Source: Asanoa sp. WMMD1127 (GTDB taxonomy: Bacteria > Actinomycetota > Actinomycetes > Mycobacteriales > Micromonosporaceae). Taken from it: a stretch of DNA of 64,000 bases. Within the stretch, counting starts at the first letter, position 1, and each line of letters opens with the position of its first letter. Both the position numbers and the translations under genes were made by a program. Shown one piece after another: positions 6,914 through 48,899 of this stretch. The stretch is from NCBI RefSeq assembly GCF_029626225.1, contig NZ_JARUBP010000001.1, forward strand, positions 3,224,001 to 3,288,000, given 5' to 3'. The notes under the pieces were generated by a model, which saw only the letters and a list, made by a program, of their open reading frames with translations, searched no databases and was not told the DNA's origin.

Positions 6914-7723
6914 GTGAAGACCTGGCTGATCACGGGCGCGTCCAGAGGGATGGGCCGCGAGCTGGTCTCACAGGCCCTGGGCCGCGGCGACCGGGTCGCG
7001 GCCACGTTGCGGCGGCCCGAGCAGCTCGACGATCTCGCGGACCGGCACGGCGACCGGCTCTGGCGTCGCGCGCTCGACGTCACCGACACCACGACGCTGC
7101 GGGTGGTGGTGTCGGCGGCCTTCGCGGACCACCAACGGATCGACGTGGTCGTCTCGAACGCCGGGTACGGTGTGTTCGGCGTCGCCGAAGACCTGACCGA
7201 CGACCAGATCCAGGACATGATCGCGACGAACCTGACCGCGTCGATCCAACTGGCCCGGGCCGTCATCCCGCCGTTGCGGGCGCAGGGCGGCGGCCGGCTG
7301 ATGCAGATGTCGAGCATGGGCGGCCAGATCGCCTTCCCGGCGTTCTCGATGTACCACGTGACCAAGTGGGGGATCGAGGGCTTCTACGAGGCCCTGGCCA
7401 CCGAGGTGGCGCCGTTCGGCATCGCGACGACACTGATCGAGCCGGGCATGGTGCGCACCGGGTTCTTCGACGCCGCCACGCGGGTCCCGGTCAGCGAGCC
7501 CTACGTGGGCGGCCCGGCTGACCGACCGCCGGTCTCCGTCGAGCAGATGACCGACAGCCAGGAGAAGACGGCCGCGGCCATCATCGCCGCCGCTGACTCG
7601 GCCGACCCACCGCGGCGACTGGTGCTGGGGTCCGACGCCTGGAACCTCATGACCGACACGCTGCGCCAACGCCTCGCCGACATCGAGTCGCAACAGGAAT
7701 CGGCGGCCGTCGCCGACCTGTGA
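6914..7723 (+). CDS. Short-chain dehydrogenase/reductase (SDR)
   Basis: NAD(P)-dependent oxidoreductase of 269 residues with classical SDR layout: cofactor motif TGASRGMGRE at residues 7-16, NAG motif VVSNAGYGVFG near 80, catalytic Ser in MSSMGGQIAF near 140 and YxxxK as YHVTK near 152-156. The C-terminal part after VEPGMVRT-type sequence (IEPGMVRTGFF) resembles the retinol-dehydrogenase-like group acting on small carbonyls. Substrate unknown. Start GTG 6914 begins directly with the Rossmann strand. It stands alone and converges on the next gene. Confidence 0.88.
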   Translation: MKTWLITGASRGMGRELVSQALGRGDRVAATLRRPEQLDDLADRHGDRLWRRALDVTDTTTLRVVVSAAFADHQRIDVVVSNAGYGVFGVAEDLTDDQIQDMIATNLTASIQLARAVIPPLRAQGGGRLMQMSSMGGQIAFPAFSMYHVTKWGIEGFYEALATEVAPFGIATTLIEPGMVRTGFFDAATRVPVSEPYVGGPADRPPVSVEQMTDSQEKTAAAIIAAADSADPPRRLVLGSDAWNLMTDTLRQRLADIESQQESAAVADL

Positions 7724-7732
7724 GCGCGGGCG

Positions 7733-8626
7733 TCAGGAGTTTCCGGCGTTTTCCGCCAGGTCTGCCCAGAGGACGCGGTGATCAGCGTGTAGGTACAGGC
7801 GGCTGCCGTGTGTCGCGATTGGATGGAAGGCGTGCAGCGGGGCATCGTCCGTGTCGACGAGGACGGCGGGCGCAACGGTGTCGTCGGTCAGGCGACTGAA
7901 GGTTAGGCGCATGGGGTCGCCGTACTCCCCGATGAAGAGGACCTCGTCGCGGTGCACCAGTAGGTGTCGGGCGCCGCGCACCGGAGTCGGTGTGTGGGCG
8001 CGAGCCCGGCCGTCGGTGATCTGGACGAGCGGGAAGCCGGTGTAGTAATACGCCCAGGTGGTGCGGGCATCGACGTTGAGGGCGTAGCAGTCGGCGATGG
8101 GCTCGGCGCCCGCCGGCGGTTGGTAGGTCCACAGCCGCCGACCGTGGCCGTCGAACCGGACGAGGCCGGCGGCGCCGATCGGGTCGTCCCACCCGAGATT
8201 GCCGAAGACGCCCTCGTCGAAGTAGCCGACCCAGATCGTCCCGGCGGCGTCGACGCCGATGTGTTCGATGCCGTCACCGAGACAGAAGGACCGCACGTGT
8301 GCCCCCGCAGGGTCGAACACGTGAGCGTTGTCCTCCGCCGTGCCGTCACGGAAACGGCGGCAGCGCGAGCTGACCACCAGGATGTCGCCGTCGGGCAGCA
8401 GATCCACCAGCGGATAGGCGACCGCGGCGCCGGCCAACGGGACCCGCCGCCATCCCTGGTCGCCGTCGTACAGGTGCACCGACGCAGCCGAGTCTCGCGC
8501 CACGGCGAGGACGACCAACTGTCCGAAGACCGTGCCGGTGGCCGCGACGATCTCCTCCGCCGACTCGAGCGTCGGCAACTCGGCCACCTGCCAGCACCGC
8601 AAAGTCCGCACGCCGTCTTCTACCAT
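7733..8626 (-). CDS. Predicted beta-propeller protein, function unknown
   Basis: Protein of 297 residues without signal peptide or membrane helix. Repeated segments with aromatic/GD patterns (VHLYDGDQGWRRVPLAG, LVDLLPDGDILVVSSRCRR, VGVDAAGTIWVGYFDEGVFG, VRFDGHGRRLWTYQPP) look like blades of a propeller of the NHL/WD type. No enzyme motif is recognised. The start ATG is 32 bases from the divergent small gene at 8659. It may act as a binding or scaffold protein, but that is only a fold-level guess. Confidence 0.65.
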   Translation of the reverse strand: MVEDGVRTLRCWQVAELPTLESAEEIVAATGTVFGQLVVLAVARDSAASVHLYDGDQGWRRVPLAGAAVAYPLVDLLPDGDILVVSSRCRRFRDGTAEDNAHVFDPAGAHVRSFCLGDGIEHIGVDAAGTIWVGYFDEGVFGNLGWDDPIGAAGLVRFDGHGRRLWTYQPPAGAEPIADCYALNVDARTTWAYYYTGFPLVQITDGRARAHTPTPVRGARHLLVHRDEVLFIGEYGDPMRLTFSRLTDDTVAPAVLVDTDDAPLHAFHPIATHGSRLYLHADHRVLWADLAENAGNS

Positions 8627-12843: not shown

Positions 12844-15801
12844 TCAGGTGGGGAGGTCGATCCAGGCCCGTACGGCCTCGTGGATGTCCGGTGTCGCCGG
12901 GTCCAGCGAGGTGTCGTCGACCACCTGCGTCCCGGTGGTGCCATAGGTGACCGCCACCGAGCGGTTGGTGGTGCCGGTGATCTGGCCCCAGCGCTCGACG
13001 GTCTCCCACGAGCCGCGGGTGTACTTGTACTGGACGACCGTACCCTCGAGCACCGACAGCGTGGCCTCCCAGATGCCGGGCTCGACCTCCGTCATGGCCA
13101 CCTTCCCCGGATCCCATGGCCCCATCTCCGGCAGCGCCCCAGGCAGGTGAACCGTGTCCCCGGCGGGCGTGTTGGCCGGCACGCGCACCCGCCACGTCAC
13201 CCGCACGGGCTGCGGAATCGTCTGCTGCACGACCTCGTTCGACGGGATGGACGTACGCCCGCCCACCACCGCCCTGACCACGTAGGCATAGGTGTTGTCG
13301 ACGGCCACATCCGTATCCACATAGGACGGCGACGGAACGGTCGCCAGCGGCGCACCATAGACACCGTCCACCGGCCGCCGGAACACCTGGTAAGCCGCGC
13401 CGGGAACCGGATCCCACGACAGCGCCACCAACGCCCCGGCGAACCCGGTGACCCTCAGGTTCGCCGGCGCCGGCACCGCGTCGTCGGGTTCCTCGAGCCG
13501 GACCACGGCCCGCAGCCCGTCGACGGTGACCACCGCCCGCTCACCGGTCAGCCGCGCCTGGAACACCACGGTGGCCGACGACCGGGGATCGACGCGGACA
13601 TACCGGGTCTGCCGGATGTCGGTGCCGCCCACCGTCATGACGACGTCCTTGCCGCCAGGAACGGAACCCCGGTTGGTCACGGTGGCCCGAATCGTCACGA
13701 TGTCACCGGGCGCGGCCGTGGCCGGCGCCGCCACCGCGGTCACCCGAGGCCGCGGCTCCACATAGCGGGGCACCGAGGCCAGATCCGCCGCCGTCGCGGG
13801 CCGGAACCGCACCGCCTGGCCACCGCTCTTCTCGAGCGCCGCGACGAACGTGTCGTGCCGCGTCACCAGCGACCGGTTGACCGCGAGCGGTGTCGGGTCG
13901 GTCTCGTAGTCGGTCGCCGCCGCGTCCCCCAATGACTCGGCGACCCAGAAACCCCGCCCCAGGAAGTCCAGCCGATAGCGCAAGGCTTGGGCACGCTCAC
14001 CGGTCATCGCACCCACGTACCACCGGGACCCGGACCGCCGCGCCGTCACCAGATGATCCGCGACCCGCGCCGACAACACCCGACTCTCGTCCCACCGGGC
14101 CGGCACGTCCGCGATGAAGGCCAGCCCGGGCGCGCCGGCATAGTGCTCCGGCAGATCCGCGGCCATCTGCACGCCGGAGAAGTAGTTGACGTAGTACGAA
14201 AGCTGCTTGCCCACCGTGGTGTGCACCCGCCGGCCCTGGCCCTGCGGGTCCCAGAGGATGTTCATGATGCCCGGCGTGTAGTCCATCGGCCCCGACAGCA
14301 TGCGGGTGAACGGAATCGTCAACGTGTGCGCCGGCGAATTGCCCGCCGAGAAGGCGTCGTACTCCTGCCCCCGCACGGCCTCCCGGGCGATCGCGTTGGG
14401 GAACGTGCGCACCTCGCCCGTCGCGTGCACGCACTCGTGGCACAGCACGTTGATCTTGTGCGCCGCCGCCTTCTCCAGCACGAGCCGGAAATGATTGACC
14501 GAGCGCTGGGAGTACGCGTACTGCCCGGGAATCTGCCCCACGTAGCCGGTCTTCAGGTAATGGATGCCGAGCCGCTCATAGAGCGCGAACGCCTCGTCGA
14601 TCTGCGCCTCGTAGTTGTCGATGTCGGCGCCGGTCTCGTTGTGCGCGACGAACTCCACGCCCTTGCTCTTGCCGTAGGCGACGACCGCCTCGAGGTCGAA
14701 GTCGTCCGCGGGAGTGGTGAAGTCCTGATCCGCCCAGGAACCTTCCCAACCCTTGTTCCACCCCTCGGCCAGCAACCCGCCGATGCCGTTCGCGGCCGCG
14801 AAGTCGATGTAGCTCTTGGCCCGCTCGGTAGTGGCGCCGTGCCGCGGGCCCTCTTCCCACGTGTACTGCTGGTGCTGCAACGCCCACCAGATCCCCACGT
14901 ACTTCGTCGGCTTCATCCACGACGTGTCCTGGTCGCAGATGGCGCACGGCGGGTTGAGGTTCTCCAGCAGGTGCGAGTCGACGAGCCCCGCGGCGTCCTT
15001 GGTGATGGTCAACGCCCGCCACGGTGTCGCCCGACCGGTGGTCGTCACGACCGCCGCCGCCCGGTCGGGAGTCGGTGTCAATGCCGCACGCAGGCGCCCC
15101 GACTCGCGTACCAGCGTCATCGCCGCGTAGTCGACCAGGTCCGCCTCGTGGATCGACAGGTGCGTGCCGTCGGCCCACCGGAACGTGGCCGGCGTCATCG
15201 TGTCACCCATGGCGCTGTAGGCCGTCTCCTGCCACAGCTGCTCGTCGCCGTCGTACGCCAGGCTTCTGGGTGTCCACCAGGCAGTCGGATCGCCCGCCAG
15301 CGCGAACTCGGTCGCCTCGTCCACAATGTCCAGACTGGACAGCGCGTCCTGGCGCGGCACCGAGTAGCGGATCGCCACACCGTCGTCGTAGGCGCGGACG
15401 ACCAGGTCGAACACGCGCCCGTCGGCCTGCCGCAACCTGACCGTCAGCTCGCGGTGCCGGTCGCGGACCACGGCGTCGGCGCCCCAGACCGGCCGCCAGG
15501 TGGTGTCGCGGGCCCGGGTCGCCGACCGGGAGATCGTGACGCCGGCGCCCAGCGTCGAGCCGTCGGTCAACCGCAGGCCAAGGGCCGAGGGGAGCACCAG
15601 CGTACGGTTGTCCCGCCGCACCGCATATCGCAGCTGACCGCCGTCCGCGGAGACGGCGACCGTCAACCGGCCGTCCGGCGAGGACACCTTCGTGGCCGCC
15701 GCCCCGGCCCGCCCGGCCGCCGGCGCGACACCGGGCGCGACGAGCGTCATCACTAGTGCGAGCCCGGCGGCCGCGGCCGCTCGTGCGCTGGCGCGTCTCA
15801 T
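12844..15801 (-). CDS. Secreted GH97 glycoside hydrolase with NEW, FN3 and CBM20 domains
   Basis: Exported enzyme of 985 residues acting on alpha-linked glucans or galactosides. It has a signal peptide (about residues 1-30), a GH97 N-terminal beta domain starting at SSPDGRLTVAV, and a GH97 barrel with KYVGIWWALQ, AEGWNKGWEG, HNETGADIDNYE, YLKTGYVG and CHECVHATGE segments near 305-460. After about residue 685 come a NEW-type beta domain (VTAVAAPATAAPGD), a fibronectin III domain from about 777, and a CBM20 starch-binding domain from about 865 (VHLPGALPEMGPWDPGKV). The CBM20 suggests starch or glycogen as substrate; GH97 includes both inverting alpha-glucosidases and retaining alpha-galactosidases. 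The gene is divergent from a LacI regulator, with a palindromic operator 47 bases before its start. Confidence 0.92.
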   Translation of the reverse strand: MRRASARAAAAAGLALVMTLVAPGVAPAAGRAGAAATKVSSPDGRLTVAVSADGGQLRYAVRRDNRTLVLPSALGLRLTDGSTLGAGVTISRSATRARDTTWRPVWGADAVVRDRHRELTVRLRQADGRVFDLVVRAYDDGVAIRYSVPRQDALSSLDIVDEATEFALAGDPTAWWTPRSLAYDGDEQLWQETAYSAMGDTMTPATFRWADGTHLSIHEADLVDYAAMTLVRESGRLRAALTPTPDRAAAVVTTTGRATPWRALTITKDAAGLVDSHLLENLNPPCAICDQDTSWMKPTKYVGIWWALQHQQYTWEEGPRHGATTERAKSYIDFAAANGIGGLLAEGWNKGWEGSWADQDFTTPADDFDLEAVVAYGKSKGVEFVAHNETGADIDNYEAQIDEAFALYERLGIHYLKTGYVGQIPGQYAYSQRSVNHFRLVLEKAAAHKINVLCHECVHATGEVRTFPNAIAREAVRGQEYDAFSAGNSPAHTLTIPFTRMLSGPMDYTPGIMNILWDPQGQGRRVHTTVGKQLSYYVNYFSGVQMAADLPEHYAGAPGLAFIADVPARWDESRVLSARVADHLVTARRSGSRWYVGAMTGERAQALRYRLDFLGRGFWVAESLGDAAATDYETDPTPLAVNRSLVTRHDTFVAALEKSGGQAVRFRPATAADLASVPRYVEPRPRVTAVAAPATAAPGDIVTIRATVTNRGSVPGGKDVVMTVGGTDIRQTRYVRVDPRSSATVVFQARLTGERAVVTVDGLRAVVRLEEPDDAVPAPANLRVTGFAGALVALSWDPVPGAAYQVFRRPVDGVYGAPLATVPSPSYVDTDVAVDNTYAYVVRAVVGGRTSIPSNEVVQQTIPQPVRVTWRVRVPANTPAGDTVHLPGALPEMGPWDPGKVAMTEVEPGIWEATLSVLEGTVVQYKYTRGSWETVERWGQITGTTNRSVAVTYGTTGTQVVDDTSLDPATPDIHEAVRAWIDLPT

Positions 15802-29191: not shown

Positions 29192-30103
29192 CTACCCGGG
29201 TACGACAGTCATGCCAACGGCTCGGGACACCTCCTCGACATTCGCGTGGACCTCCTTGTAGAAGGTCTCGTCGTCAGGTCGCAAGTGACCAGGCAGGTCG
29301 TACACGAAGGAAGGCACACGATCCGAGGTGATACTGAGGGTGGTGCTCCTCTGACCTACGGTCATCGCTACGTTCAGCTCGTCAAACTCGATCCCAGAGA
29401 GGTGCAACAACCGCATCCGCGCGGAGCTATCGTCGCCGCGCAACTTGGCGATCAGCCTTCGCTGAAACTGCTTGACCTTGCCCGGCGTGATCTTGAGTTC
29501 GAGGCGCCCGGTCTCGGCGTCTTCATCGGACAAGTCGACGGCGTCCGCGATGTCTGCCGGGAGACCATGTCGCCTAAGCGTGATTTGATGGGCATTCGCC
29601 TCCTCTAGCAACCTGGCGAGACCGGCTTCGTCGACCACCGCAGCAACGTCCAGGATGTAGTTTCCGCTGAACTCCTTGAAGCGTCGCGACAACGCTGGCG
29701 CCAGCAGAGATTTGGCGCCCGCCCTGCCCTGTACCTCGAGAACAAGCAGTCCGGTCGTCGACTGCGTAGGGGCGAGCACGAGGCACCTCAGTGTCGTGTG
29801 TTCAATGTGATGGTCGTCGCGGACGAAGAGGACGGTCTCCTCGTCGTCCTGATGATAGAACTCCGACGTCTGCCCGCTGGCTCCGACATAGATCGAGAAG
29901 CGCACCGAGCGCCCAGCCGGCGTGACCTGCTTCAGTCTCAGATGCCGCTGCTTGTCGGTCACCGGGTGGGTCGAGAGGCCACGAAGGATGCCGTAGAGCA
30001 GCGGAAGCGCGTCCTGCTCGCCGTCGAACTTGCCCAGTGGGGCAGGGCTGCCCCCGTGCGAGTGCACGCGGAACGCGTACAGCGAGTACCCGTGTCTAAG
30101 CAT
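29192..30103 (-). CDS. Uncharacterised island protein paired with membrane protein
   Basis: Protein of 303 residues with no membrane segment. No family recognised with confidence. It has a beta-rich N-terminal half (SLYAFRVHSHGG, VRFSIYVGASG, ETVLFVRDDHH, TGLLVLEVQGRAG) and a C-terminal helical/strand region (RLELKITPGKVKQFQRRLIAKL, FDELNVAMTVG). The pattern of a central LLVLE strand and a DUF-like C-terminal is reminiscent of phage-defence sensor proteins such as KwaB, but no specific motif supports this. It is divergent from the ParB-like gene with about 450 bases between. Confidence 0.6.
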   Translation of the reverse strand: MLRHGYSLYAFRVHSHGGSPAPLGKFDGEQDALPLLYGILRGLSTHPVTDKQRHLRLKQVTPAGRSVRFSIYVGASGQTSEFYHQDDEETVLFVRDDHHIEHTTLRCLVLAPTQSTTGLLVLEVQGRAGAKSLLAPALSRRFKEFSGNYILDVAAVVDEAGLARLLEEANAHQITLRRHGLPADIADAVDLSDEDAETGRLELKITPGKVKQFQRRLIAKLRGDDSSARMRLLHLSGIEFDELNVAMTVGQRSTTLSITSDRVPSFVYDLPGHLRPDDETFYKEVHANVEEVSRAVGMTVVPG

Positions 30104-30557: not shown

Positions 30558-32033
30558 GTGACGGAGAGTAACCGTAAACAGTACCTCCTACGAGCGTTGT
30601 CCGATCACAACCACGAAAGCGATCCTGAGACCGTAAGGATCCCCCTCCGAAACACGAAAGTGCTTCCAGTAATCGAGGTGCCTCTTGGCCTTCCCCTCCT
30701 CAACGCTGACAGCTTTCGCATCGCGCCACAGCTGGCGGAACACCCCGACCGCGATCTCGTCCTCGCCGATCCTAGTTCGCAAGAGGCGCAGCAGATCGTC
30801 GCAGAACTTGTTCGAACCTCTCATCGTAAGGCCGAAGAGCTAAAGGCAAACCTGCTCGCAGAAGGCGGGCAAACGCAGCCCGGTGTGATCACACGCGAAG
30901 GAAAGCTGATCAACGCAAACACGCGCTGCGTTCTGTTGAGAGAGCTCCAGAGTGAGGGCCGCGGGCCCACGGGGACACTGCGCGTAGCTGTATTGCCGAG
31001 CGGCGTCACAGACGCTGAACTACTTGAACTCGAAATGGTGCTTCAACAGCAGATTGAGCTCAAGGACAAATACCGCCTTGTCAGCGAATTAATGATGATT
31101 CAACGCCTCTACGGCGAGGGGTTCACCGACGAGCAGATCGCTCGCAAGCTCCGAAAGAAGGGCAAGGATGTTCGGGAAAGTCGAGAGATCCTTGCGCTCA
31201 TGCATCGCGCACGAAGTTTGGTCGAGAATGTCCTTCCGTTGACTTCATTCGACGACACAGAGGATCGCCGCCAAAACTGGGCCGAGCTACTACGTGACAC
31301 GAAAGCCCTAGACAACAGCGACGGCTACCCGGCCGGCGACATGCACATTAAGCGCTGGCTGATTGCCTACTTCTCGCAAGTTGGGTCTGTCCACAAGCTC
31401 CGGGGAGCCCAGGACGACTGGGTGGAGCGCGACGGCGTGGTAGAAACGCTCAAGAGCCACGAACAACTGCGATCTCTTCTCCCTTCTAATCAAAGTGAAG
31501 CCAATGACCCAGACGCGGCGATCCAAACCGCGAGCGGCAATGGCGTTAATCAAGTCGTGCCGGGGCAAAGGGACGTTGGCAGCGGTGATGATCTGGGACT
31601 TGACGTCCTCGGAGATGAGCCCGACGCCCCCGAGACAGTCGCGACCGCTCAAGTTGACGCAATCCTGAATCTTGTTGTAGCTGCGAATGAGGCTGGCGAC
31701 AAAGACGTTCAACTGCCCGACGGTTCAACTATTGTCGGCACAGAAGTCCTTGGCGTCGTGCGGCAAAGTGTAGAGCTGGCCCTCGATTCCGCAAAACGTA
31801 GGAAGCGTTCGGGCGGGCGGTTCAATCGGCCAGTCGCTGAGCTCGATCGTGCCCGTCTGGCATTGAAGTCAGCATCGGACGCTTTAGAGGAGGTGAGTAA
31901 TGACCCCGGCTTCAGGCCGCTACTCACCCGCGCCGCGCAGACGGCCGAAGAGCTATCCGGTCTACTCAGCCAGATTCGAGCCCAGCTTGACCGACAGGTG
32001 TCGAACACGATTCTCGTAGGTGAGGAGGCGTGA
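30558..32033 (+). CDS. ParB/sulfiredoxin-fold protein, first gene of a candidate defence cassette
   Basis: Protein of 491 residues. A ParB-like N-terminal domain is visible: AEELKANLLAEGG, then QPGVITREGKLINANTRCVL near 105-125, the site that in this fold binds or cleaves nucleotides/DNA. A ParB-type helix-turn-helix follows (EMVLQQQIELKDKYRLVSEL, YGEGFTDEQIARKLRKKG near 175-205). The remaining 250 residues are helical and acidic in the middle. GTG 30558 has GGAG at five-base spacing; the frame upstream to 30405 lacks one. Stop overlaps the next gene's start (GTGA). Role in recognising or marking DNA is inferred from neighbours. Confidence 0.8.
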   Translation: MTESNRKQYLLRALSDHNHESDPETVRIPLRNTKVLPVIEVPLGLPLLNADSFRIAPQLAEHPDRDLVLADPSSQEAQQIVAELVRTSHRKAEELKANLLAEGGQTQPGVITREGKLINANTRCVLLRELQSEGRGPTGTLRVAVLPSGVTDAELLELEMVLQQQIELKDKYRLVSELMMIQRLYGEGFTDEQIARKLRKKGKDVRESREILALMHRARSLVENVLPLTSFDDTEDRRQNWAELLRDTKALDNSDGYPAGDMHIKRWLIAYFSQVGSVHKLRGAQDDWVERDGVVETLKSHEQLRSLLPSNQSEANDPDAAIQTASGNGVNQVVPGQRDVGSGDDLGLDVLGDEPDAPETVATAQVDAILNLVVAANEAGDKDVQLPDGSTIVGTEVLGVVRQSVELALDSAKRRKRSGGRFNRPVAELDRARLALKSASDALEEVSNDPGFRPLLTRAAQTAEELSGLLSQIRAQLDRQVSNTILVGEEA

Positions 32034-33955
32034 CAGACACCTCGGGACCACGCCTAAGCATGACCTTGTCGGGCACTCCCGTCCGTATCTATTTTGAACG
32101 GCACAATCTTACCGACGACCAATGGGCGGAACTCGGACTCCTTATCGCGGAAGAGCAGCCGCGGCCTGGTCAGCGAATGAAGGTACGTCCAGAGACGCTT
32201 CTTGCGCGCCGAGGCGGGCTGCGGGGTCTGCTGGGTAGACATCAAATCCGCCTAGACCCTGACCAGGCGGTCCGGCGTCTTCTCGAACAGACCAAGGCGG
32301 ACGACCAACTCGCGCTGACGTCGCTCGACTCCAGCCGGGCAGACTCGGAGCTACCTGCAGCGCCGTTCGTGGGACTACAGCGGGTCCAGTCGAGGCGGCT
32401 ACGCCGCGAGCTTCGCCGGTTCCAGCAGCGTGACCTTGAGAAGCTTCAAGGGCTAGCGCACGGCGCCAACTTTTCCGTTCCTGGAGCGGGCAAGACCACT
32501 GTCGCCATCGCCCTACACCTCCATGCCCAAGAACAAGGTCGCGTCGACCGGCTCTTGGTGGTGGCGCCTCTCTCAGCCTTTGACGCGTGGGAGGAGGAGG
32601 CACAAGGCATCGTCGACCCACCCTTGTCAATCGGCCGCTGGCGTGGTGGCGCACTCCCAGCGACCGACGTCGTCTTGGTCAACTACCAACGGCTACCAAA
32701 CTCAACAGACCGTCTTACGGAGTGGATGACTCGCGAGCGAGTGCACCTTGTCGTTGACGAAGCGCACCGAGCGAAGCGTGGTGCGGCCGGCGGGTGGGGC
32801 AGAGCGCTACTGGACCTTGCACCGTTGGCGGCACGCAGAGACATACTCACCGGTACGCCTGCGCCTAACCATCCGCGGGACCTGAGGGCGCTCCTGGACA
32901 TCCTGTGGCCAGGCGGAAGGGTGTCGGCGCGGCTACCTCGGCAGGCGATGCAACAAGAGCCTCCAATGACCGCCATGGCCTCGGTTGCTGAAGCGATTCG
33001 CCCGATCTATGTCCGGACCAATAAGCGCGAGCTTGAGCTTCCCGACGTAGTCGTTGGCCGCATACGCGTAGCGATGAGTCCGCTGCAACGTCAAATCTAC
33101 GACGCGATGTTAAGCCAATATGCCGGTATGTTCGATCTCGACCGTCGAGATCGCACAATGTTCGCGCAGATGGGCGACGTCGTCATGTACCTATTACAAG
33201 CCGCATCTAGCCCCCAGCTTTTGGCACGAGGCGCGGGTCAAAGCCAGAGTTATCGCTATCCCCCGCTCGCTATCCCGGCCGGAAGTCGGCTTGCGAGGCT
33301 GGTTGAAACGTATGCGGCGCACGAGGTTCCGGCCAAGGTTCAGCGCGCCTGTGCGATCGTCTACGAGAATTCTATGGCGGGTAGAAAAACGCTTGTATGG
33401 TCCAATTTCCCCGACAACCTTCTCGCATTGGAGGTACAACTTGCGGGACTCTACCCTTCCGTCATTTATGGTGCGATTCCGAGTGACGAGACAGCGCAGC
33501 CAGGGGTTCGGACTAGAGAACGTGAGCTCGAACGCTTCCGCAGCGATCCCAGATGTATGGTGCTTCTGGCAAATCCCGCAGCGATGTCAGAAGGCGTGAG
33601 CCTTCACAGGACGTGTCACGACGCCATCTACCTGGATCGAACGTTCAATGCCGGCCAGTATCTTCAATCCCTTGATCGAATTCACCGCTTGGGCCTCTCT
33701 CCCGACGTTCAAACGAACGTGACACTATTGCTGGCCGATGGAACGATCGACGACCGTGTCGATAGGAGGGTCGCAGAGAAGACGAGACGGCTGTCGCAGA
33801 TGCTCGACGACCCAGGGCTAGTGCAAATGGCTCTCCCGGACGACGACGATTCGGGAGACTTGGTCGACGATCCGGAAGACTTGGAGGAGATTCTTGAGCA
33901 TTTGGGTGGCGCTCGAACGGATGTATCGGAGCGATGGGAGGTCCAACCCGCATGA
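32030..33955 (+). CDS. SNF2-family DNA-dependent ATPase/helicase
   Basis: Superfamily 2 ATPase of 641 residues. Motif I is SVPGAGKTTVA near 149-158, motif II VVDEAHRAKRG near 240-250 (DEAH), motif III ILTGTPAPN near 271-279, motif V NPAAMSEGVSLH near 520-531, and motif VI QSLDRIHRLGLS near 545-556. Both RecA lobes are complete, so it should translocate on DNA with ATP. A 130-residue N-terminal extension (IYFERHNLTDDQW start) is unassigned. It is translationally coupled on both sides: GTGA with the ParB-like gene, ATGA with the nuclease gene. Expected to be the motor of the cassette. Confidence 0.9.
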   Translation: MTDTSGPRLSMTLSGTPVRIYFERHNLTDDQWAELGLLIAEEQPRPGQRMKVRPETLLARRGGLRGLLGRHQIRLDPDQAVRRLLEQTKADDQLALTSLDSSRADSELPAAPFVGLQRVQSRRLRRELRRFQQRDLEKLQGLAHGANFSVPGAGKTTVAIALHLHAQEQGRVDRLLVVAPLSAFDAWEEEAQGIVDPPLSIGRWRGGALPATDVVLVNYQRLPNSTDRLTEWMTRERVHLVVDEAHRAKRGAAGGWGRALLDLAPLAARRDILTGTPAPNHPRDLRALLDILWPGGRVSARLPRQAMQQEPPMTAMASVAEAIRPIYVRTNKRELELPDVVVGRIRVAMSPLQRQIYDAMLSQYAGMFDLDRRDRTMFAQMGDVVMYLLQAASSPQLLARGAGQSQSYRYPPLAIPAGSRLARLVETYAAHEVPAKVQRACAIVYENSMAGRKTLVWSNFPDNLLALEVQLAGLYPSVIYGAIPSDETAQPGVRTRERELERFRSDPRCMVLLANPAAMSEGVSLHRTCHDAIYLDRTFNAGQYLQSLDRIHRLGLSPDVQTNVTLLLADGTIDDRVDRRVAEKTRRLSQMLDDPGLVQMALPDDDDSGDLVDDPEDLEEILEHLGGARTDVSERWEVQPA

Positions 33956-34728
33956 GGCAGCAACTCCGTGCTGCGCTCTATGTCGCGAGGACCATAGACA
34001 CAAATGGAAGCCACATAACTGCCGTCGCTCGAGCGTACGCAAATGCCACGACAGGCGGCGTCCACCGGTCCGAGGAACTGAGAGAAAGCGAACGGGCACT
34101 TTTGTCGGCTGGACTGCTTCGGCGACTAGGCGAGCGCATCGTGCCGGTCCCCTTGCTTTGCGCCATATCGGAAATGGCGGATGACGACGCTGTTACCGTA
34201 CTCGCGCCACTCCTCTATGCCGAGTTTGAAGGTCGCCGTGCCACGGCATCACTAGGCGCAGAGGGGCCGGTCGAAGCGGGGCTTTTCGATGATCGTAAAG
34301 CCGAGGTCGGTGCGGCGGCAGAAGTTGTCGTCCTCGAGTATTGCCGTTCACAGTTGTCAGGACTTGGGCGTGACGACCTCGCGCAGAGGACTCAGCGGGT
34401 CAGTCTCATATCGGATTCGCTAGGTTTTGATGTTCTTGCCCCAACCATCTCTGGGCCAGCTCGACAACTCGAGGTTAAAGGCCAAAGCGCCCTTCCAGGT
34501 CCCACGGCCCGCTTCTTTATCAGCAGAAACGAGTATGAAGTCGGCAAGCGTACCGAGCACTGGGCACTCGTCTGCTGTGCCTTAACAATCGGCGCCGCGT
34601 CCTTGGCCTGGTGCCGCGCCAGAGTCCTGGGGCCATACCTGCCAGTAGACCGAAATGGCATATGGACAGAGGCGTTAGTTACGCTCCCACGGGGCGCCCT
34701 GACGGCAGGGGTGCCTGATCCACTGTGA
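33952..34728 (+). CDS. DUF3883 / PD-(D/E)xK nuclease-like protein
   Basis: Protein of 258 residues. The C-terminal half is a DUF3883 restriction-like fold: GFDVLAP near 158-164, QLEVKGQ near 172-178 (the catalytic D...ExK), FFISRNEYEVGKR near 189-201, and WALVCCAL. The N-terminal half has winged-helix-like helices (RQQLRAALYVART, ERALLSAGLLRRLGERI). It is therefore a good candidate for the DNA-cutting subunit. ATG 33952 overlaps the SNF2 gene stop codon (ATGA), which fixes the start and shows tight coupling. Confidence 0.82.
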   Translation: MRQQLRAALYVARTIDTNGSHITAVARAYANATTGGVHRSEELRESERALLSAGLLRRLGERIVPVPLLCAISEMADDDAVTVLAPLLYAEFEGRRATASLGAEGPVEAGLFDDRKAEVGAAAEVVVLEYCRSQLSGLGRDDLAQRTQRVSLISDSLGFDVLAPTISGPARQLEVKGQSALPGPTARFFISRNEYEVGKRTEHWALVCCALTIGAASLAWCRARVLGPYLPVDRNGIWTEALVTLPRGALTAGVPDPL

Positions 34729-34821
34729 CACAAACATTCTTGATCCATGTCGCTCGGACCCGTACAATGCAGCGCTGTATGACCAAATGCGCTGTTGCGG
34801 ACAGAAAGAGTCGCCTTTCGG

Positions 34822-36717
34822 ATGGCGCCTCCAGGAAAGAGCAAGTTCGAGCAAAGGAAAAGGCCTGTGTCGCCGCAGTATCCTGAACAACTCACGATTA
34901 TCGACGCCGATGATGTCGGCGACGTGCGCTCAGAGAGGAGAGTGCGCGTCTGGCCCAAGTCGGTATCGGATATTGCGGCATGGTGCAGGAAGCAGAAGCT
35001 CGAACCAATTTCGCATAAAGAGGTCCCAGGAGCCAACCATTTCGAACGTCAGCAGCTAGCCGCGCTGGGAGGCGTCGCGGCAGCTTTGGCCAAGCGCCGT
35101 CCGGGACGTCAGTCGATTCGCCAATTTCCCGAGGCTGTCCGGCAATGGCTCAAGGCCTCGGAAGAGCCGCCGCCTCAGCTTGTCGATGCCATCTGCGAAG
35201 ACATTGCAGCCGGCGCAGACCCACTCGCCTTGATCTATGAACGGATCGTGTCTGGGCCGCGCCGGCGGTTGCTTGGCACCTTCTTTACGCCGACTCCGGT
35301 GCTCGACTACATGCACCACGTCCTTAGGAATCTGCCCGAACCTGCCGCCGTGGCCGATCCAGGAGCGGGCGTTGGTGCTTTTACGATCGCGGCCCTTAAG
35401 TGGTGGCGAGAAAGCGAGGTTCATGCTGTAGACGTAAATCTCGTCACGCTCGGCTTGCTCGCTGCCCGTCCGGATCTCGATCGTCGCCCGTCAGACGGTT
35501 TGAATAGATCTCGGCTTCGGTTGCGGCACGAAGACTTTTTAGAGTGGCTCATAACCCGCTGGCCAGAACTCGATGGGGCGCGCTTGTTATTGGGAAACCC
35601 GCCCTACACCCGCCATCAACAGCTCACTGCTTCGGAAAAGTCCGCGGCGCGGGCGGCAGTTGGAAGCCTTGCTCCCGGACTTCGGTCCGGCCTGTCGACG
35701 TACTTCCTGGCAGCTTCGCTCGCGGCCCTCAAGCCTAAGGACGCCCTTTGCCTCCTACTCCCCGCTAATTGGCTCGAGGCAGATTATGCGAAGTCTGTTC
35801 GACAGCGACTTTGGTCGGTTGGGACGCGGCCCACAGAGTTGCATCTGTTTCCCAATGACTTGAACGTATTCCCCGGAGCCCAGGTCGCGGCCATGGTGTT
35901 GTACGTAGGGCCCGAGCGGAGCCGTCGACAGAAGTTGAAAGTTGTGCGGGTCGCCGGCGACTTGGAGTCTGGTTTCCGGGCATCTGTAGTGAACGACATC
36001 GAGCGGGTGGGTGTCACCCCTCCTAGCTTCAGTCCCCGGAAGCTGCTTGCCTCTCACGTTGCCAATCGCCGCGCTTCTGAGGCCACGCCGCTGGGAGTAC
36101 TTGCGAATATAAGAAGGGGCGTGGCGACGGGAGCCAACTCCTTTTTCCTTCGCACCAGATCGGAGGCAGATGAGTTGCCTCGCCACGCATATCTGCCGGC
36201 TATAAGCAGGCTACGGGACTTGATTGGCGACGACCTTGATGAGAAGGAGCACCTTGAGCTGAGCTCCAAAGGTGTTAGGTGCTGGATGTTGAATCTCCAG
36301 ACTGGAGACGCAAGTGACCCACGGATTCAAAGGATCATCGACGAAGGGGTTGCGTTGTCGCTTCATAAGAGGCATCTCTGCAAAATTCGCGATCCTTGGT
36401 ATTCACTTGAGACCGTCCCCACGCCCGACATTCTTGTGGGGCCGATGGGCAAGGAGAAGTTCCGGGTCGTCGTAAACTCTGTCGGCGCTACTCCCACAAA
36501 CACGCTCTATGGAATTCAGTTGAAGCGAAGGTCGGACGACGTGCTACCGGGAGCGATTAGCGAACTTACGAATTGGCTTCGAAGCGACATAGGGCAAGAC
36601 GCACTGAGGTCTGCGGCGCGGGGTCATCACGGCGATGGCCTTGTAAAGCTCGAGCCCGGAGCGCTGAAACAGGTTCAGGTGCCCGCACACATCGCGAAGT
36701 TCCTGGAGGACGGCTGA
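34822..36717 (+). CDS. N6-adenine DNA methyltransferase, Eco57I-like
   Basis: Protein of 631 residues. Motif X-like FFTPTPVLDYM near 156, SAM-binding motif I DPGAGVGAF near 178-186 and catalytic motif IV NPPY near 259-262 identify a gamma-class N6-adenine methyltransferase. The C-terminal 280 residues contain LGVLANIRRGVATGANSFF near 425, the usual start of a target-recognition domain. No nuclease motif was seen inside it, so restriction would have to come from the neighbouring DUF3883 protein. ATG 34822 is the best start; TTG 34795 is an in-frame alternative. It begins about 90 bases after the nuclease gene on the same strand and probably belongs to the same operon. Confidence 0.88.
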   Translation: MAPPGKSKFEQRKRPVSPQYPEQLTIIDADDVGDVRSERRVRVWPKSVSDIAAWCRKQKLEPISHKEVPGANHFERQQLAALGGVAAALAKRRPGRQSIRQFPEAVRQWLKASEEPPPQLVDAICEDIAAGADPLALIYERIVSGPRRRLLGTFFTPTPVLDYMHHVLRNLPEPAAVADPGAGVGAFTIAALKWWRESEVHAVDVNLVTLGLLAARPDLDRRPSDGLNRSRLRLRHEDFLEWLITRWPELDGARLLLGNPPYTRHQQLTASEKSAARAAVGSLAPGLRSGLSTYFLAASLAALKPKDALCLLLPANWLEADYAKSVRQRLWSVGTRPTELHLFPNDLNVFPGAQVAAMVLYVGPERSRRQKLKVVRVAGDLESGFRASVVNDIERVGVTPPSFSPRKLLASHVANRRASEATPLGVLANIRRGVATGANSFFLRTRSEADELPRHAYLPAISRLRDLIGDDLDEKEHLELSSKGVRCWMLNLQTGDASDPRIQRIIDEGVALSLHKRHLCKIRDPWYSLETVPTPDILVGPMGKEKFRVVVNSVGATPTNTLYGIQLKRRSDDVLPGAISELTNWLRSDIGQDALRSAARGHHGDGLVKLEPGALKQVQVPAHIAKFLEDG

Positions 36718-37364: not shown

Positions 37365-38879
37365 ATGCCTGGCCTCTTCGACGGCTTCGAAGGTTACTTC
37401 ATCCATGGGAGCCCGGACGTGGACCGAGCGTTGACGTCGGCTTTGATAGCCGTGGACGCCAACGTGCTGCTAAACCTCTACCGGTACAACGAGCGCACGA
37501 CTGAGGACCTGCTGACGATCTTTGACAAGATCGGCCATCGACTGGTCATTCCTCACCAGGCGATGCGGGAGTTCCATCGCAACCGGCTGGCGGCAATCGG
37601 GAACCCGGCCGGGGCGGCACAAGACCTGCGCAACACGCTCGACAGGAATCAGCGATCGGCAAGCGACGCGCTCGCCAGGTGGGCGAAGCAGGTGGCGCTC
37701 GACGACCAAGAACTGAGCCGCTTGCAGGACGGCGTCGGCGAGGCATTCGACCGACTTCGCGAAGCAGTCGACCGTGGCGAACCGAACCGTGTACGTGCCG
37801 ACTCTCCCGCCGCCGAAGACCGCGTGCTCCGCAGGCTTGAGGTCTTGCTGGACGGCCGGGTGTTGTCCTGTCCTTCAGACGAGGCGGACCTTATCGTCGA
37901 GGGGAACCGACGGGTCGAGGCTCAGGTGCCGCCCGGGTATCTCGATGCCGACAAGGGCGACGTTAACGCAGAGGGGGCCGCCGGCGATTTCCTTGTGTAC
38001 CGACAGGCCTGCGACGAGGCCACCCAACGGGGTCTTGACCTGGTGATCATCACGGGAGATGAGAAGGAGGACTGGTGGTGGCGTCATCGAAACGTCGCCA
38101 TCGGGCCTCGTCACGAGATGGTCAAGGAGTTCTTCGACCGTAGCAACGGTCGACGACTCTTCCTGCTAACTCCGCGCAGTCTGCTGCAGCGCTCTGGGGT
38201 TCTCGACGTTGAAGTCAGTCCTATCTCCGTGGAAGACGCAGCCCGCCCACTCGAAGACCTCCAGCAAGACCACGGGTGGACGACCGAAGGTATCCGTGAG
38301 CTCCTCCGGCGCCTCGAGATGCAGGGCTTCCCGCACGCCGCTGTCATTTGGTCCGCGGCTGACCTCGGTGGCATTATCGATCGCGACACGGTTTATGACA
38401 TCTGTGGCTATGAAGAATCAAGAACACTGCGGGGGTTCACTACCCCGGTCGCACGCATTACTTCAGAGCTCCAAGGCGAAGGCCTAGTAGCCGAGCGCGT
38501 GACACCGATGCTCGTTGCTGTCTACCCTAACGATGAGAAGGCCGCTGGATTCCGCATTCCAGACGAAGTGGTCAGCGTTCTCTCCAACATGCAGTCCAAC
38601 GCGTCGAGCGAGGCGACATCGATGGTCGGTGTGACGAGCTGGGGGAAATACCTGCCCTTGACGGCCTGGTTGCGGGCACAGTCCGCGGACGACCTTCCGC
38701 TCAGCTTTGGAGAAATCGAGGAGATTCTCGGCGCCGACCTTGCAGGCTCAGCGAGGAAACATCCGCCATATTGGCGGTCCTCCACAAATTCTCTCGGCAA
38801 GGCGATCACGGCAGCAGGCTTTAAGGCCAGCCGAGTTGACTTAGACAACGAGACAGTCCGATTTGTTAGACGAGCATAG
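37365..38879 (+). CDS. PIN_8 (DUF4935) nuclease-like protein fused to wHTH-like and DUF7662 domains
   Basis: Protein of 504 residues with three parts. N-terminal PIN-like domain of the DUF4935/PIN_8 type: AVDANVLLNLYRYNE near 29-43, VIPHQAMREFHRNRL, and the distal acidic site VIITGDEKEDWWWRHRN near 225-241. The middle (YDICGYEESRTLRGFTTPVARI, in parts, near 340-380) looks like a small winged-helix module. The C terminus (LPLSFGEIEEILGADL, SARKHPPYWR, VDLDNETVRFVRR) matches DUF7662. PIN domains cut RNA, or less often DNA, with divalent metals; target unknown. Fusion suggests nucleic-acid sensing coupled to cleavage. No antitoxin gene is adjacent. Confidence 0.8.
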   Translation: MPGLFDGFEGYFIHGSPDVDRALTSALIAVDANVLLNLYRYNERTTEDLLTIFDKIGHRLVIPHQAMREFHRNRLAAIGNPAGAAQDLRNTLDRNQRSASDALARWAKQVALDDQELSRLQDGVGEAFDRLREAVDRGEPNRVRADSPAAEDRVLRRLEVLLDGRVLSCPSDEADLIVEGNRRVEAQVPPGYLDADKGDVNAEGAAGDFLVYRQACDEATQRGLDLVIITGDEKEDWWWRHRNVAIGPRHEMVKEFFDRSNGRRLFLLTPRSLLQRSGVLDVEVSPISVEDAARPLEDLQQDHGWTTEGIRELLRRLEMQGFPHAAVIWSAADLGGIIDRDTVYDICGYEESRTLRGFTTPVARITSELQGEGLVAERVTPMLVAVYPNDEKAAGFRIPDEVVSVLSNMQSNASSEATSMVGVTSWGKYLPLTAWLRAQSADDLPLSFGEIEEILGADLAGSARKHPPYWRSSTNSLGKAITAAGFKASRVDLDNETVRFVRRA

Positions 38880-39337
38880 GTTCTGGACAGCGATCGCCGT
38901 TAGGCCGAAGCCGTATCCGACTCCCGCACTCTGTTTCGCAGGCTCCCGTCTCGCCAGTCGTCGGGATTTCTGCCGGGTAGGAACACACTGCCGAGAACGA
39001 TGTGCGGGCGTTTGATGGCCAAACGGCGAGTTCGTCGCAGGGTGGCTACACCATAAGAACGATTATGGGCGGTTGTCGAGCTGCGCCGCCTGCCAACGAT
39101 TTCCTTAACCTCTTCGCTGACCCTCCTGGCGCAACGCCGACAACCGGCTTGATGGTCAGCCACGAACTCCGTAGCGGGGACCGACTTCGGCTACCGTGCA
39201 AGGTTGCGAGCACGGCCGTGCTTGTTTTGGAGGTTTGTCGGTCTTCGCGAGGCGGCAGCCAACCTCCAGGCGATCCGTAAGCCAACGGCTACGATCGCTT
39301 GTCTCCACCTCTGACTCGATTGCAAGGAGCACGGTCC
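38880..39337. other. Intergenic region containing repeat copy A
   Basis: About 460 bases before the KAP NTPase. It includes an inverted repeat at 39051-39068 listed separately. No supported gene: open frames such as 38900-39163 minus lack ribosome sites and domains. Confidence 0.5.
39051..39068. repeat. Dispersed inverted repeat, copy A
   Basis: CCATAA-GAACGA-TTATGG, a perfect 6-base inverted repeat around a 6-base spacer, preceded by TACA and followed by GCGGTTGTCGA. Copy B at 48545 shares TACACCATAAG, TTATG and a nearby TCGA; copy C lies at 41684. Confidence 0.6.
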
Positions 39338-41551
39338 ATGGGGTTGTTCCGCCGAACAGGCAAGGGCAGTGACCCTGTCAGCGAAACTAGGAATCGGCGG
39401 ATGCTTCCCCGCAACCGCGGCAATCTCTATGCCGACGATCCAGTGGATGAGGTAAATGACCAGCTGGACCGCGGTCGGCTGGCAGCGCAGTTGACCCGAT
39501 CCATCGAGGCTGTATCAAACCAGTCTGACAGTGCCGTCGTCGCGCTCGTCGGCCCCTGGGGTAGCGGCAAGTCGAGCCTGCTTATCGGCATAGAGGCGAA
39601 TCTGCGAGAGGAGGGCTGGTACCTTGCGCGGCACAACCCCTGGGCATACTCGTCGTACGAGAGGTCGGTCGCAGGCTTCTTTGCGGAAATCCGGGATGTG
39701 GTGCCCGACGCGGTCATGGGACCGGACCGACGGAGAGCACTCGGCGAATGGGTCGAGCGCCTGGCACCGGCCGGCACACTTGGCACTGCGGTCGGTGTCA
39801 ACGCCACGGGTGCGATGACATCAGCCGCGTCGCTCATTATGGGCGATCGAAGCCCAGAACGGCTTCGCAAAATATTCGCGGAGGCGTTAGAAGGTCTGGA
39901 TCATCCAGTCCTTGTAATTCTAGACGATCTAGATCGGCTCCAACCCGACGAGTTATTGCTTACCTTCAAGCTGGTCCGATTGATCGGTCGGCTGCCTAAC
40001 GTCTACTACCTGCTCGCATACGACGAGGCGACGCTCGCCGAAGTACTACAACACACTCAGCTTATCGGTTCGGGTCCCGGAAGAGCACGACAATACCTGG
40101 AGAAAATGGTTCAGGTCCGCCTCGATATTCCGCCGCTACTCGAGGACCAACAGATCAACCTTGTCAATGAGGGAATCGATGCGTTTTGTGCAGCGCATGG
40201 CGTTGAACTCGCCCCCGATGCTCGTGCTCGTCTCCAATCGGCGTGGTCTGAATGCCTAGTTCGGTATCTCGATCAGCCGCGGGCCGTCAAACGACTGTTC
40301 ACACAGGTTGACGCGTTGTGGCCAGAGGTGCATGGTGAAGTCGATTTTGTTGACTTCCTCCTCATGACGTTTCTTCGAACCTTCGAGCGTGACGTACATG
40401 AGCTGGTGATCAACCATAAGTCTGAACTGCTCCAAAGCTCGTTCGCTTTCGGGCGGCATAGCGAAACAAACCCCGAACGGTGGGAACGTTGGAAGAATCG
40501 CATCGCCGAGGAAGGAAAGCCGCGACACGTTGAATCGATCGCCGCTCTGATGTCCGAACTTTTCCTCTATCTGCGAGGTGCGCGAGAAAACACCTCGTAT
40601 GCTGCCTCTTATCGGGAGGATGTGCGGCGCCGCCGCGGAGTGGACAGTGATGAGTTCTTCGACCGATACACCCAGGTCGGCGTGCCTGCCAGCGATCTCG
40701 CAGAGAAACTTGTTGCCGACGCCGTTAACGAGATGCGAGCAGGAGCCTTTGGGCCTTCGATCGAGCGACTTCAGAGCTGGTTCGACAAGGATGCCGGCAA
40801 GGTAGCCCGAAAGCTGTATCGCGTCGATGAGCAATCCCCGCTGCCAACGGGCCTGGCACTTAGCTTGTTAGGAAGAAACTACCTCCCGTCCAGCGACCAG
40901 CGGTCAGGCATACTTGGACTACGGGGCGATCGGGAGATTCTTCGGGTCGCGACGAGGATTGTCCTCCGCCTAGATGGCGATGACGCCCTGACGACCCTTC
41001 ACGCCTTGGCCGTCCGTGGAACTTCAGAATTGGCGATGGCGGCTGATGTCGTCAGAATGGCGAAGCGTGCTGATTCCGGTCCGCCGCCGACTTGGCTATT
41101 CGATGGAGTGCAGGCTGTCTCGTCCCTGGTGGAGAAGCATTTGCGGGCGGCCTCGCAGGAGGCACTCACCGAAGCGCCGGATTTACCACGATTCCTTTAT
41201 ACATTCCTTGAGCTGCAAGGATCGGCGGCTACCCAAGCGCTGTTGTGGGGGGTGCTTGAGTCATCGTCGTGGCAGCTAGAGGATCTGCTCGCGTCTCTCG
41301 TGCCGGTTGGTCAGACAAGTAATGGTCGACGGACCTGGCAGTCCTTGGGCGAGCTGCGGGTCGGGGACGTCGATGAGCTACTTAACATCGCCCGAGTACT
41401 CGCTGCGCTGCCGTCGACCGCCGGCGAGCAGCCCATAGATGAAGACGACGAAGTCGACGTGACATTCGAGGGGCGCAGAAGGTATGCACTACGGGTCATG
41501 GAGCGCGTTCGTGCCGAGCGCAGCACCGCCGAGCCCGAAGCCGCACCTTAA
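39338..41551 (+). CDS. KAP-family P-loop NTPase
   Basis: Large STAND-like ATPase of 737 residues. The KAP signature is clear: LVGPWGSGKSSLL near 70-82 (Walker A with the WG variant), RHNPWAYSS near 99-107, and LVILDDLDRLQPDEL near 190-204 (Walker B with paired Asp), followed by VKRLFT-type sensor region (PRAVKRLFTQVDAL near 315-328). Unlike many KAP NTPases it shows no convincing transmembrane insertion. Family members include PifA, which excludes phage T7, so a defence role is plausible in this island. ATG 39338 is chosen for its AAGGAG site eight bases upstream; the frame is open to 39299. Confidence 0.88.
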   Translation: MGLFRRTGKGSDPVSETRNRRMLPRNRGNLYADDPVDEVNDQLDRGRLAAQLTRSIEAVSNQSDSAVVALVGPWGSGKSSLLIGIEANLREEGWYLARHNPWAYSSYERSVAGFFAEIRDVVPDAVMGPDRRRALGEWVERLAPAGTLGTAVGVNATGAMTSAASLIMGDRSPERLRKIFAEALEGLDHPVLVILDDLDRLQPDELLLTFKLVRLIGRLPNVYYLLAYDEATLAEVLQHTQLIGSGPGRARQYLEKMVQVRLDIPPLLEDQQINLVNEGIDAFCAAHGVELAPDARARLQSAWSECLVRYLDQPRAVKRLFTQVDALWPEVHGEVDFVDFLLMTFLRTFERDVHELVINHKSELLQSSFAFGRHSETNPERWERWKNRIAEEGKPRHVESIAALMSELFLYLRGARENTSYAASYREDVRRRRGVDSDEFFDRYTQVGVPASDLAEKLVADAVNEMRAGAFGPSIERLQSWFDKDAGKVARKLYRVDEQSPLPTGLALSLLGRNYLPSSDQRSGILGLRGDREILRVATRIVLRLDGDDALTTLHALAVRGTSELAMAADVVRMAKRADSGPPPTWLFDGVQAVSSLVEKHLRAASQEALTEAPDLPRFLYTFLELQGSAATQALLWGVLESSSWQLEDLLASLVPVGQTSNGRRTWQSLGELRVGDVDELLNIARVLAALPSTAGEQPIDEDDEVDVTFEGRRRYALRVMERVRAERSTAEPEAAP

Positions 41552-42703: not shown

Positions 42704-43605
42704 CTAGGCCGTGTTCCGTAGGGCTCGGAGCCATTGGTTGATGGCCGCGATGGTCAGGGTGGCTTCGTAGCGCACGGCGAGTTTGTCGTACCTGGTGGCC
42801 ATGGCGCGGTGGTGTTTGAGCTGGTTGATGCCGCACTCGACGGCGTGATGCGCCCGGTAGAGGTTGGGGTCGAAGGCGGGCGGACGCCCGCCTCGGGAGC
42901 CCTTGGCCTTACGGTGTTCGTCTTGGTCGGTCTTGCTCGGGATGCAGGCTCGGATGCCGCGGCGGGGTTGGCTGCGGAGGTGTACGCCTTGTCTGCCAGG
43001 ACGGTGTCCGGGCGGGTCCGGGGCCGGCCGCCATCGGCGCGCGTGACACGCACTTTGGCCAGCACGGGGATGAACTGAGGGCTGTCGCCGCGTTGGCCGG
43101 CGGTGACTATCGCGGCCATCAGTTTGCGGCCCTGCTCGCAGGCCAGATGGGTCTTGGTGGTCCAGCCGCCCCGGGACCGGCCGAGCGCGTGATCTGCCGG
43201 CTCGCTCTGCGTTCCGCCGGGCGGCTCCTTCTGCCCGTCACCGTCGCGGCGGGCGCCCGCGGCGTGCTGATGGGCGCGGCTGATGGTGGAGTCCACGCTC
43301 ACCGTCCAGCCGATCAACCCGGCCGCGTCCGCCCGGGCCTGCAACACCGCCAGAATCTGCGCCCAGACCCCGTCGCGCTGCCAACGGCGGAACCATCGAT
43401 ACAGCGTCTGCCACGGCGGATACACCGCCGGAACCTCTCGCCACGGCGAGCCGGTCCGGACCCGCCACCGGATCCCGTCGATGATCATCCTCATGGTCCA
43501 TTTGCGGGGCTGATCACGACCGGTTCCCGCCGGCAACGGCGGCTCGAGCACCGCCCACTGCACGTCGGTCAGGTCATGTCGCCTCACTGCCGCTACGCTC
43601 GGCAC
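42704..43605 (-). pseudogene. IS5-family DDE transposase, frameshifted
   Basis: Typical IS5/IS427-group transposase: HDLTDVQWAVLEPPLP near the N terminus, GIRWRVRTGSPWREVP, first Asp in SVDSTISRAHQH, second Asp in [12 protein letters not shown]. After this, near 42960-42968, the frame changes: continuation in another frame reads [16 protein letters not shown], then [24 protein letters not shown] with the catalytic Glu, ending LRALRNTA. A few residues usual between SAAN and RRRGI are missing, so a small deletion is likelier than programmed frameshifting. The final TAG stop codon (42704-42706) is provided by the CTAG target duplication. Transposition activity from this copy is therefore unlikely. 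Confidence 0.85.
42708..42724 (+). repeat. IS left terminal inverted repeat
   Basis: GCCGTGTTCCGTAGGGC, adjacent to the CTAG duplication at 42704-42707; pairs with 43697-43713. Confidence 0.88.
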
Positions 43606-48792: not shown

Positions 48793-48830
48793 GCACAACT
48801 TCTTGCTCGCTCGCGAGGAAGAAGTTGTGC
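48793..48830 (-). terminator. Terminator hairpin fused to the tRNA-Arg 3' end
   Basis: GCACAACTTCTT (48793-48804) pairs perfectly with AAGAAGTTGTGC (48819-48830), a 12-base stem. The first three bases of the hairpin on the minus strand (GCA) are the last three of the tRNA, so stem and tRNA acceptor share sequence. Confidence 0.7.
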
Positions 48831-48899
48831 CCCCGGCAGGATTCGAACCTGCGCTCCCGCCTCCGGAGGGCGGTGCTCTATCCCCTGAGCTACGGGGGC
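48828..48899 (-). tRNA. tRNA-Arg (anticodon CCG)
   Basis: Seventy-two bases folding as a full cloverleaf: 7-base acceptor stem GCCCCCG/CGGGGGC with discriminator A, D arm GCTC/GAGC, anticodon stem CCGCC/GGCGG with loop CTCCGGA (anticodon CCG, reads CGG), a 4-base variable loop and T arm GCAGG-TTCGAAT-CCTGC. CCA is not encoded. It lies on the minus strand with its 3' end toward the accessory region, as at tRNA-targeted integration sites, and about 3 kb from argS. Confidence 0.95.

Follow-up and report, generated by a model that had tools for sequence, protein, structure and literature searches.

A recurring ParB-like/SNF2 gene module, often with a predicted nuclease, adjoins exchangeable DNA methyltransferase genes

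The ParB fold is an NTP-switched sliding clamp, and the ParB clamp is familiar from chromosome segregation. What, then, is a ParB-like gene doing in front of genes for an SNF2-type ATPase, a NOV_C (DUF3883) protein and a DNA methyltransferase? We found this arrangement in Asanoa sp. WMMD1127, in a stretch of 64,000 nucleotides (the window) of a 7.97-Mb genome. All four genes lie on the plus strand: the ParB-like gene (30558..32033, 491 aa from GTG 30558), the SNF2 gene (32030..33955, 641 aa), the NOV_C gene (33952..34728, from ATG 33952; longest ORF from 33934) and an Eco57I-like methyltransferase gene (34822..36717, from ATG 34822; longest ORF from TTG 34795). At its longest, the ParB-like ORF opens at 30405; its relatives align only from GTG 30558. 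A preliminary description had the first three genes overlapping by four bases at each junction and the methyltransferase following after about 90 bases. Read directly, the junctions are indeed a GTGA overlap (32030-32033) and an ATGA overlap (33952-33955), and the spacing is 93 bases to the ATG start or 66 bases to the TTG start.

The G+C content is 60-61% between 28 and 42 kb of the window versus 69-75% across the first 28 kb. Together with a tRNA-Arg gene at 48827-48899, this dip fits an imported island. Divergent from the ParB gene is a gene for a 303-aa protein (29192-30103, minus strand) that matches no Pfam, PADLOC or NCBIfam family. Downstream are a PIN_8 + DUF7662 protein (37365-38879, plus strand) and a KAP-family NTPase (39299-41551, plus strand), whose match to the PADLOC PifA model (8.2e-54) makes it a further candidate for phage exclusion within the island. 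Upstream of the module in locus L005 (5793-6407) there seems, by eye, to be a stretch similar to the C-terminal part of the PIN_8/DUF7662 protein. An IS4/5-type transposase gene (DUF4096, DDE_Tnp_1; 42754-43605, minus strand) also lies inside the island.

The ParB-like protein has a ParB nucleotide-binding fold, an HTH and long C-terminal helices. The Pfam scan of the window protein alone detected no family and no ParB domain, and among 58 relatives the best-supported family was ddrB-ParB, in 4. However, the profile of the 58 relatives matches Spo0J (1vz0, E 0.0012) over the nucleotide-box and HTH region. The AlphaFold2 model (mean pLDDT 89) retrieved only ParB, Spo0J or KorB structures at Foldseek ranks 1-17 (best E 9e-4; TM about 0.3-0.5 on the target). 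The ParB-like member of the preliminary description is thus borne out despite the silence of Pfam, and the weakness of the profile E, Foldseek E and TM values marks the protein as a remote ParB relative. Residues Q105, N121, R123, E159, Q163 and Y172 are kept in 58 of 58 rows of the alignment (A4), from which about half of the Streptomyces-type loci were left out; A4 and a further alignment, A5, omit L011, L077, L003 and L004. The fold and the conserved nucleotide-box residues, assigned to boxes by inspection, place the protein in the ParB superfamily. By such inspection R123 would be the Box II arginine, which, according to the available text of PMC12704722, other proteins with a ParB fold need in order to bind NTP. 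No ParA family is among the Pfam matches of the window proteins scanned. A search for palindromes 5' of ParB at 84 loci gave no convincing ParB-binding site. The top 5-base half-site occurs in 6 loci, against a shuffle maximum of 3, and these are all from Streptomyces or its close relatives, so shared ancestry or a G+C-rich sequence could account for it.

The SNF2 protein of the window matches SNF2-rel_dom (5.6e-18) with intact motor motifs, and of 84 relatives among the matches listed, 83 show the Walker A pattern, 77 DEAH, 74 TGTP and 81 motif VI. The NOV_C protein matches its Pfam family with 3.9e-5 (24.1 bits, cut-off 22.1) and combines a winged helix with a PD-(D/E)xK-like fold containing GFD...EVK. 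Its AlphaFold2 model (mean pLDDT 90, pTM 0.62) drew Foldseek matches to the SPARDA nuclease, D212, Hjc, DpnI, winged-helix regulators and some O-methyltransferases, all weak (best E 5e-3, none reaching E 0.001). The putative catalytic residues D166, E180 and K182 are present in 41, 40 and 39 of 42 rows. The SNF2 ATPase and the DUF3883 PD-(D/E)xK-like subunit named earlier are therefore upheld by the Pfam matches, these residues and the weak fold matches, and the fold and catalytic residues suggest that the NOV_C protein is a nuclease.

The window methyltransferase matches Eco57I (1.2e-6, 29.2 bits, cut-off 25.3) and, in its C-terminal region, M_Eco57I_C (2e-6, 27.9 bits, cut-off 27). It carries the motifs NPPY and DPGAGVG, with N268 P269 P270 Y271 invariant in five rows including the window, and its top PADLOC models are type II methyltransferases. 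It is thus probably active, with adenine as its likely target. A restriction-modification system needs a DNA methyltransferase with intact motifs, a linked nuclease gene, and cleavage of unmarked DNA with protection of marked DNA; the window holds the first, and the predicted nuclease NOV_C, in an operon with ParB-SNF2, provides the second. We also considered a type IIG enzyme with a fused nuclease and rejected it, as no conserved D...ExK was seen by eye N-terminal of the methyltransferase domain in a five-row alignment (one row with a partial N-terminus, L077 left out).

We then asked how far the gene order recurs. With the SNF2 alignment as bait against one-genome-per-species contigs, we kept 80 loci from the best 100 relatives listed. 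Among these matches, ParB is present in 79 of 80 loci, the exception being L012, which has a split SNF2 ORF, and a NOV_C gene is recognised in 40 of 80, although in some NOV_C-less loci (for example, L021) the contig stops right after SNF2. ParB and SNF2 lie on the same strand in 83 of 83 pairs among the matches listed, with a 4-base overlap in 35. The bacterial loci listed belong to Actinomycetota, Pseudomonadota, Acidobacteriota, Bacteroidota, Ignavibacteriota, Planctomycetota and Chloroflexota; two more come from archaeal MAGs, L071 (Methanosarcina, a 4-kb contig) and L074 (Thermoplasmata), whose contigs may be misbinned. A gene order that recurs in other phyla is more than chance.

Searches with the ParB protein gave a similar picture. 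Across 61 genomes (the window's own and relatives), only its own and G028, from the same family, matched, and G028 has the same four genes. Of genomes sampled from the phylum, 7 of 396 matched, as did 11 of 394 sampled from the class; each figure counts the window genome itself and two weak matches. Beyond the window's own, 14 distinct genomes matched, 10 of them more strongly (E <= 3.1e-8). In these 10 regions SNF2 always adjoins ParB, NOV_C is present in 4, and a methyltransferase in 9 (8 C5, 1 of the HmaB-like family); in the tenth (L233), GmrSD adjoins SNF2 and an Eco57I-domain protein lies about 5-6 kb away. One region (G550) is the contig of L025, so the regions overlap in part with the loci found by SNF2 and do not form a wholly independent test. 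At the four weakest matches (L171, L172, L222 and L223) SNF2 is absent within stretches of 2.9-3.6 kb, and these may be other ParB proteins. Only 2 of 72,556 plasmid records matched (Azospirillum TSH58 and Streptomyces albidoflavus), both with the order ParB, SNF2, NOV_C. The viral collection yielded no relatives with ParB as bait; of 80 viral loci, L086-L091 were analysed and L092-L165 (21-34% identity) were left out, with L088 and L090 dropped as copies of L080.

The recurrence asked for in the preliminary description thus holds for the ParB-SNF2 layout, whereas the exact set with an Eco57I-like methyltransferase occurs in only five other loci among the matches listed (L006, L007, L008, L011 and L077, the last with genes broken by frame breaks), where the position and orientation of the methyltransferase vary. 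In L006, short ORFs at 15082-15801 and about 15660 resemble the window-type methyltransferase (48 and 31 bits); lying beside an intact methyltransferase gene, they look like a decayed copy.

The methyltransferase partners are diverse. Among the matches listed, 71 of the 80 SNF2-baited loci have a methyltransferase and 9 lack one. For counting we used the 52 loci that have 7 kb of flanking sequence at each end, leaving out 28. Among the matches listed, 49 of these 52 hold a methyltransferase: C5 alone in 38, short N6_N4 alone in 4, Eco57I-like in 3, large HmaB/DUF1156-like in 2 and two families in 2. Since the short N6_N4 and the large HmaB/DUF1156-like families share a match to Pfam N6_N4_Mtase, the four families fall into three Pfam classes. 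With HMMs derived from the loci, no methyltransferase was found within 7 kb in L012, L042 and L057. In L057, an AspBHI-like, Mrr-type enzyme (6531-7886, minus strand) adjoins the ParB-SNF2-NOV_C set; we take this to be a modification-dependent family. Separate endonucleases also occur near the module. Each family label was derived from one representative: C5 from L053, Vsr from L049, NaeI-like from L050 (2.9e-31), BglII-like from L078 (26.4 bits, cut-off 26) and a third endonuclease family from L016 (PADLOC 2.5e-18). The constant unit is therefore ParB-SNF2, joined by NOV_C in half of the loci, by exchangeable methyltransferases and sometimes by a type II endonuclease.

Among the matches listed, pairwise distances correlate at 0.976 for ParB-SNF2 (83 loci) and 0.937 for NOV_C-SNF2 (42 loci), and in 47 C5 loci ParB-SNF2 reaches 0.909 versus 0.322 for C5-SNF2; none of 999 permutations matched or exceeded any of the four values. 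An SNF2 tree (66 rows) implies at least 5 switches of methyltransferase family and 8 changes in the presence of NOV_C; it comes from a short search under a simple model, with 18 of 63 inner branches weakly supported and about half of the Streptomyces-type loci omitted.

We suggest, with a probability of roughly 55%, that this is a restriction-modification-like system built on an exchangeable NTP-driven module of clamp, motor and nuclease, directed against DNA without the mark of the partner methyltransferase. The methyltransferase would mark host DNA. The ParB-like clamp, with its own HTH, would load on unmarked DNA, the SNF2 ATPase would, judging from its motifs, move or reshape the clamp-DNA complex, and the NOV_C protein, given its fold and catalytic residues, would cut the clamp-bound unmarked DNA and so serve defence. 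None of the window proteins scanned was recognised as a separate restriction enzyme, and ParB-SNF2-NOV_C would then be the sole restriction activity there; elsewhere, beside a type II methyltransferase-endonuclease pair, the module would add to the restriction by that pair. Type III enzymes, according to the available literature, start sliding on DNA through ATP hydrolysis, and a motor that sends a clamp sliding could be comparable. Several points speak against this reading. For a module that serves several methyltransferase families, one fixed complex is hard to picture. Among the matches listed, 40 of 80 loci lack a recognised NOV_C gene, and 7 of the 52 fully flanked loci have neither NOV_C nor a recognised endonuclease. 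The lack of a convincing ParB-binding palindrome, the weak fold matches of NOV_C and the four weakest ParB matches without SNF2 count against it as well. A more tentative version is that a ParB sliding clamp, rather than a methyltransferase-bound recognition subunit, searches for unmarked DNA while SNF2 and NOV_C execute, as a portable cassette that has repeatedly taken up different methyltransferase families as partners in Bacteria and possibly also in Archaea; it might then be a new restriction class.

The weak correlation of the C5 methyltransferase with the module (r 0.32) would be unexpected if ParB read the methyltransferase's site. This, and the pairing with four methyltransferase and three endonuclease families, would also suit a second-line role, in which a type II or other nuclease cuts first and ParB-SNF2-NOV_C degrades the broken invader DNA, whatever sequence is methylated. 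Across the 52 fully flanked loci, NOV_C and a separate endonuclease show some mutual exclusion (Fisher p 0.048), which is not borne out by five tree-independent pairs (median p 0.5). We consider the second-line role rather unlikely, since the window-type loci share no separate endonuclease family: neighbour clustering found no further gene family in common, and seven neighbours from L007, L008, L011 and L077 gave Sir2, AbiE (two genes), PIN, GmrSD, an integrase and one without a match in Pfam.

It is improbable that the module merely tunes a restriction system, with the ParB-like protein as a KorB-like repressor and SNF2 as a remodeller and no part in restriction itself. The resemblance to the repressor KorB and the 40 of 80 listed loci in which NOV_C was not seen would agree with such control, but NOV_C retains its catalytic residues and correlates with SNF2, and the NaeI-like gene of L050 (Paractinoplanes) has a neighbour of its own with a weak HTH match, so that a separate regulator may exist.

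Against the 49 of 52 loci among the matches listed, no methyltransferase was found in 40 control regions of 20 kb taken from 15 genomes (the window's genus to its class), using HMMs built from the loci themselves at 80 bits in the loci and E 1e-5 in the controls; the controls are ordinary chromosome without defence islands, so this contrast shows linkage and not specific pairing. ORF cluster c3, parts of which look antisense, was left out. Operon packing is better evidence for the tie. In at least 10 loci, the gap is -4 to 8 bases between the methyltransferase and BglII-like genes and -56 to 14 bases between the BglII-like gene and ParB, and the four genes from methyltransferase to SNF2 resemble a single operon. 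In at least 8 loci another endonuclease gene lies directly 5' of ParB. The ParB ORF used for L003 is over-long; the annotated genes there are 2 bases apart. That a separate anti-phage set merely sits near restriction genes by chance, as unrelated defence-like genes do in islands and as ordinary-chromosome controls would permit, is very improbable given this packing.

Finally, we compared the module with known systems. As the preliminary description required, no named system matches: PADLOC and NCBIfam models gave no system-level match, only domain-level matches or scores far below cut-offs. DISARM is represented by DrmD at 34.9 bits (cut-off 610), with no DUF1998 in the 8 window proteins scanned; DpdE of Dpd scores 28.7 (cut-off 500), ZorD of Zorya 25.3 (cut-off 1500) and the MAD2 methyltransferase of MADS 16.8 (cut-off 720). 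HmaA of Hma reaches 26.2 bits over profile positions 506-613 of 1176 only, short of a full-length match. We found no description of the ParB-SNF2-NOV_C set in the published literature, preprints aside, and it is absent from the available text of PMC12839542, PMC10853773, PMC5512222 and PMC10952713. ParBc is listed among nuclease domains near type II restriction-modification genes in PMC8011034, which places ParB in such neighbourhoods as here, whereas SNF2 and DUF3883 are absent from its accessible parts. A HEPN survey (PMC3710099) describes an SNF2 helicase-DUF3883 fusion, with DUF3883 as a novel REase domain, in restriction-modification operons and, for a separate HEPN family, an operon with ParB nuclease and DNA methylase genes; the contexts in its accessible text do not unite ParB, SNF2 and DUF3883 in one set. 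The orphan ParB-CTPase-fold proteins of PMC12704722 likewise have a ParB fold outside parAB operons and conserved NTP-binding boxes, but the parts available mention neither SNF2 nor a ParB-SNF2-nuclease operon.

Judging from its sequences, the module appears to be restriction machinery of a kind not described so far, and we file it among restriction-modification systems in the broad sense. If our reading is true, it ties the ParB clamp of chromosome segregation to restriction and gives a function to the ParB-like/SNF2 pair adjoining methyltransferase genes in many actinomycetes. The module would also allow a simple check on whether a single motor-nuclease unit can serve several methyltransferase families. 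As far as the available accounts go, it shares an ATP-driven helicase-like motor, a nuclease and a methyltransferase with type I, type III and ISP enzymes and CglI, but here motor and nuclease are not part of one protein, and the motor is accompanied by a ParB-like protein. Closest in concept, by analogy, are the MORC-SNF2 restriction operons. In the available text of Iyer et al. 2008 (PMC2292703), MORC/paraMORC and SFII-helicase operons place a SWI2/SNF2 helicase near methyltransferases, Vsr and restriction-fold nucleases, and a further ATPase is proposed to handle DNA; there, the partner is a GHKL ATPase and the word ParB does not appear, whereas here it is a ParB-fold protein.
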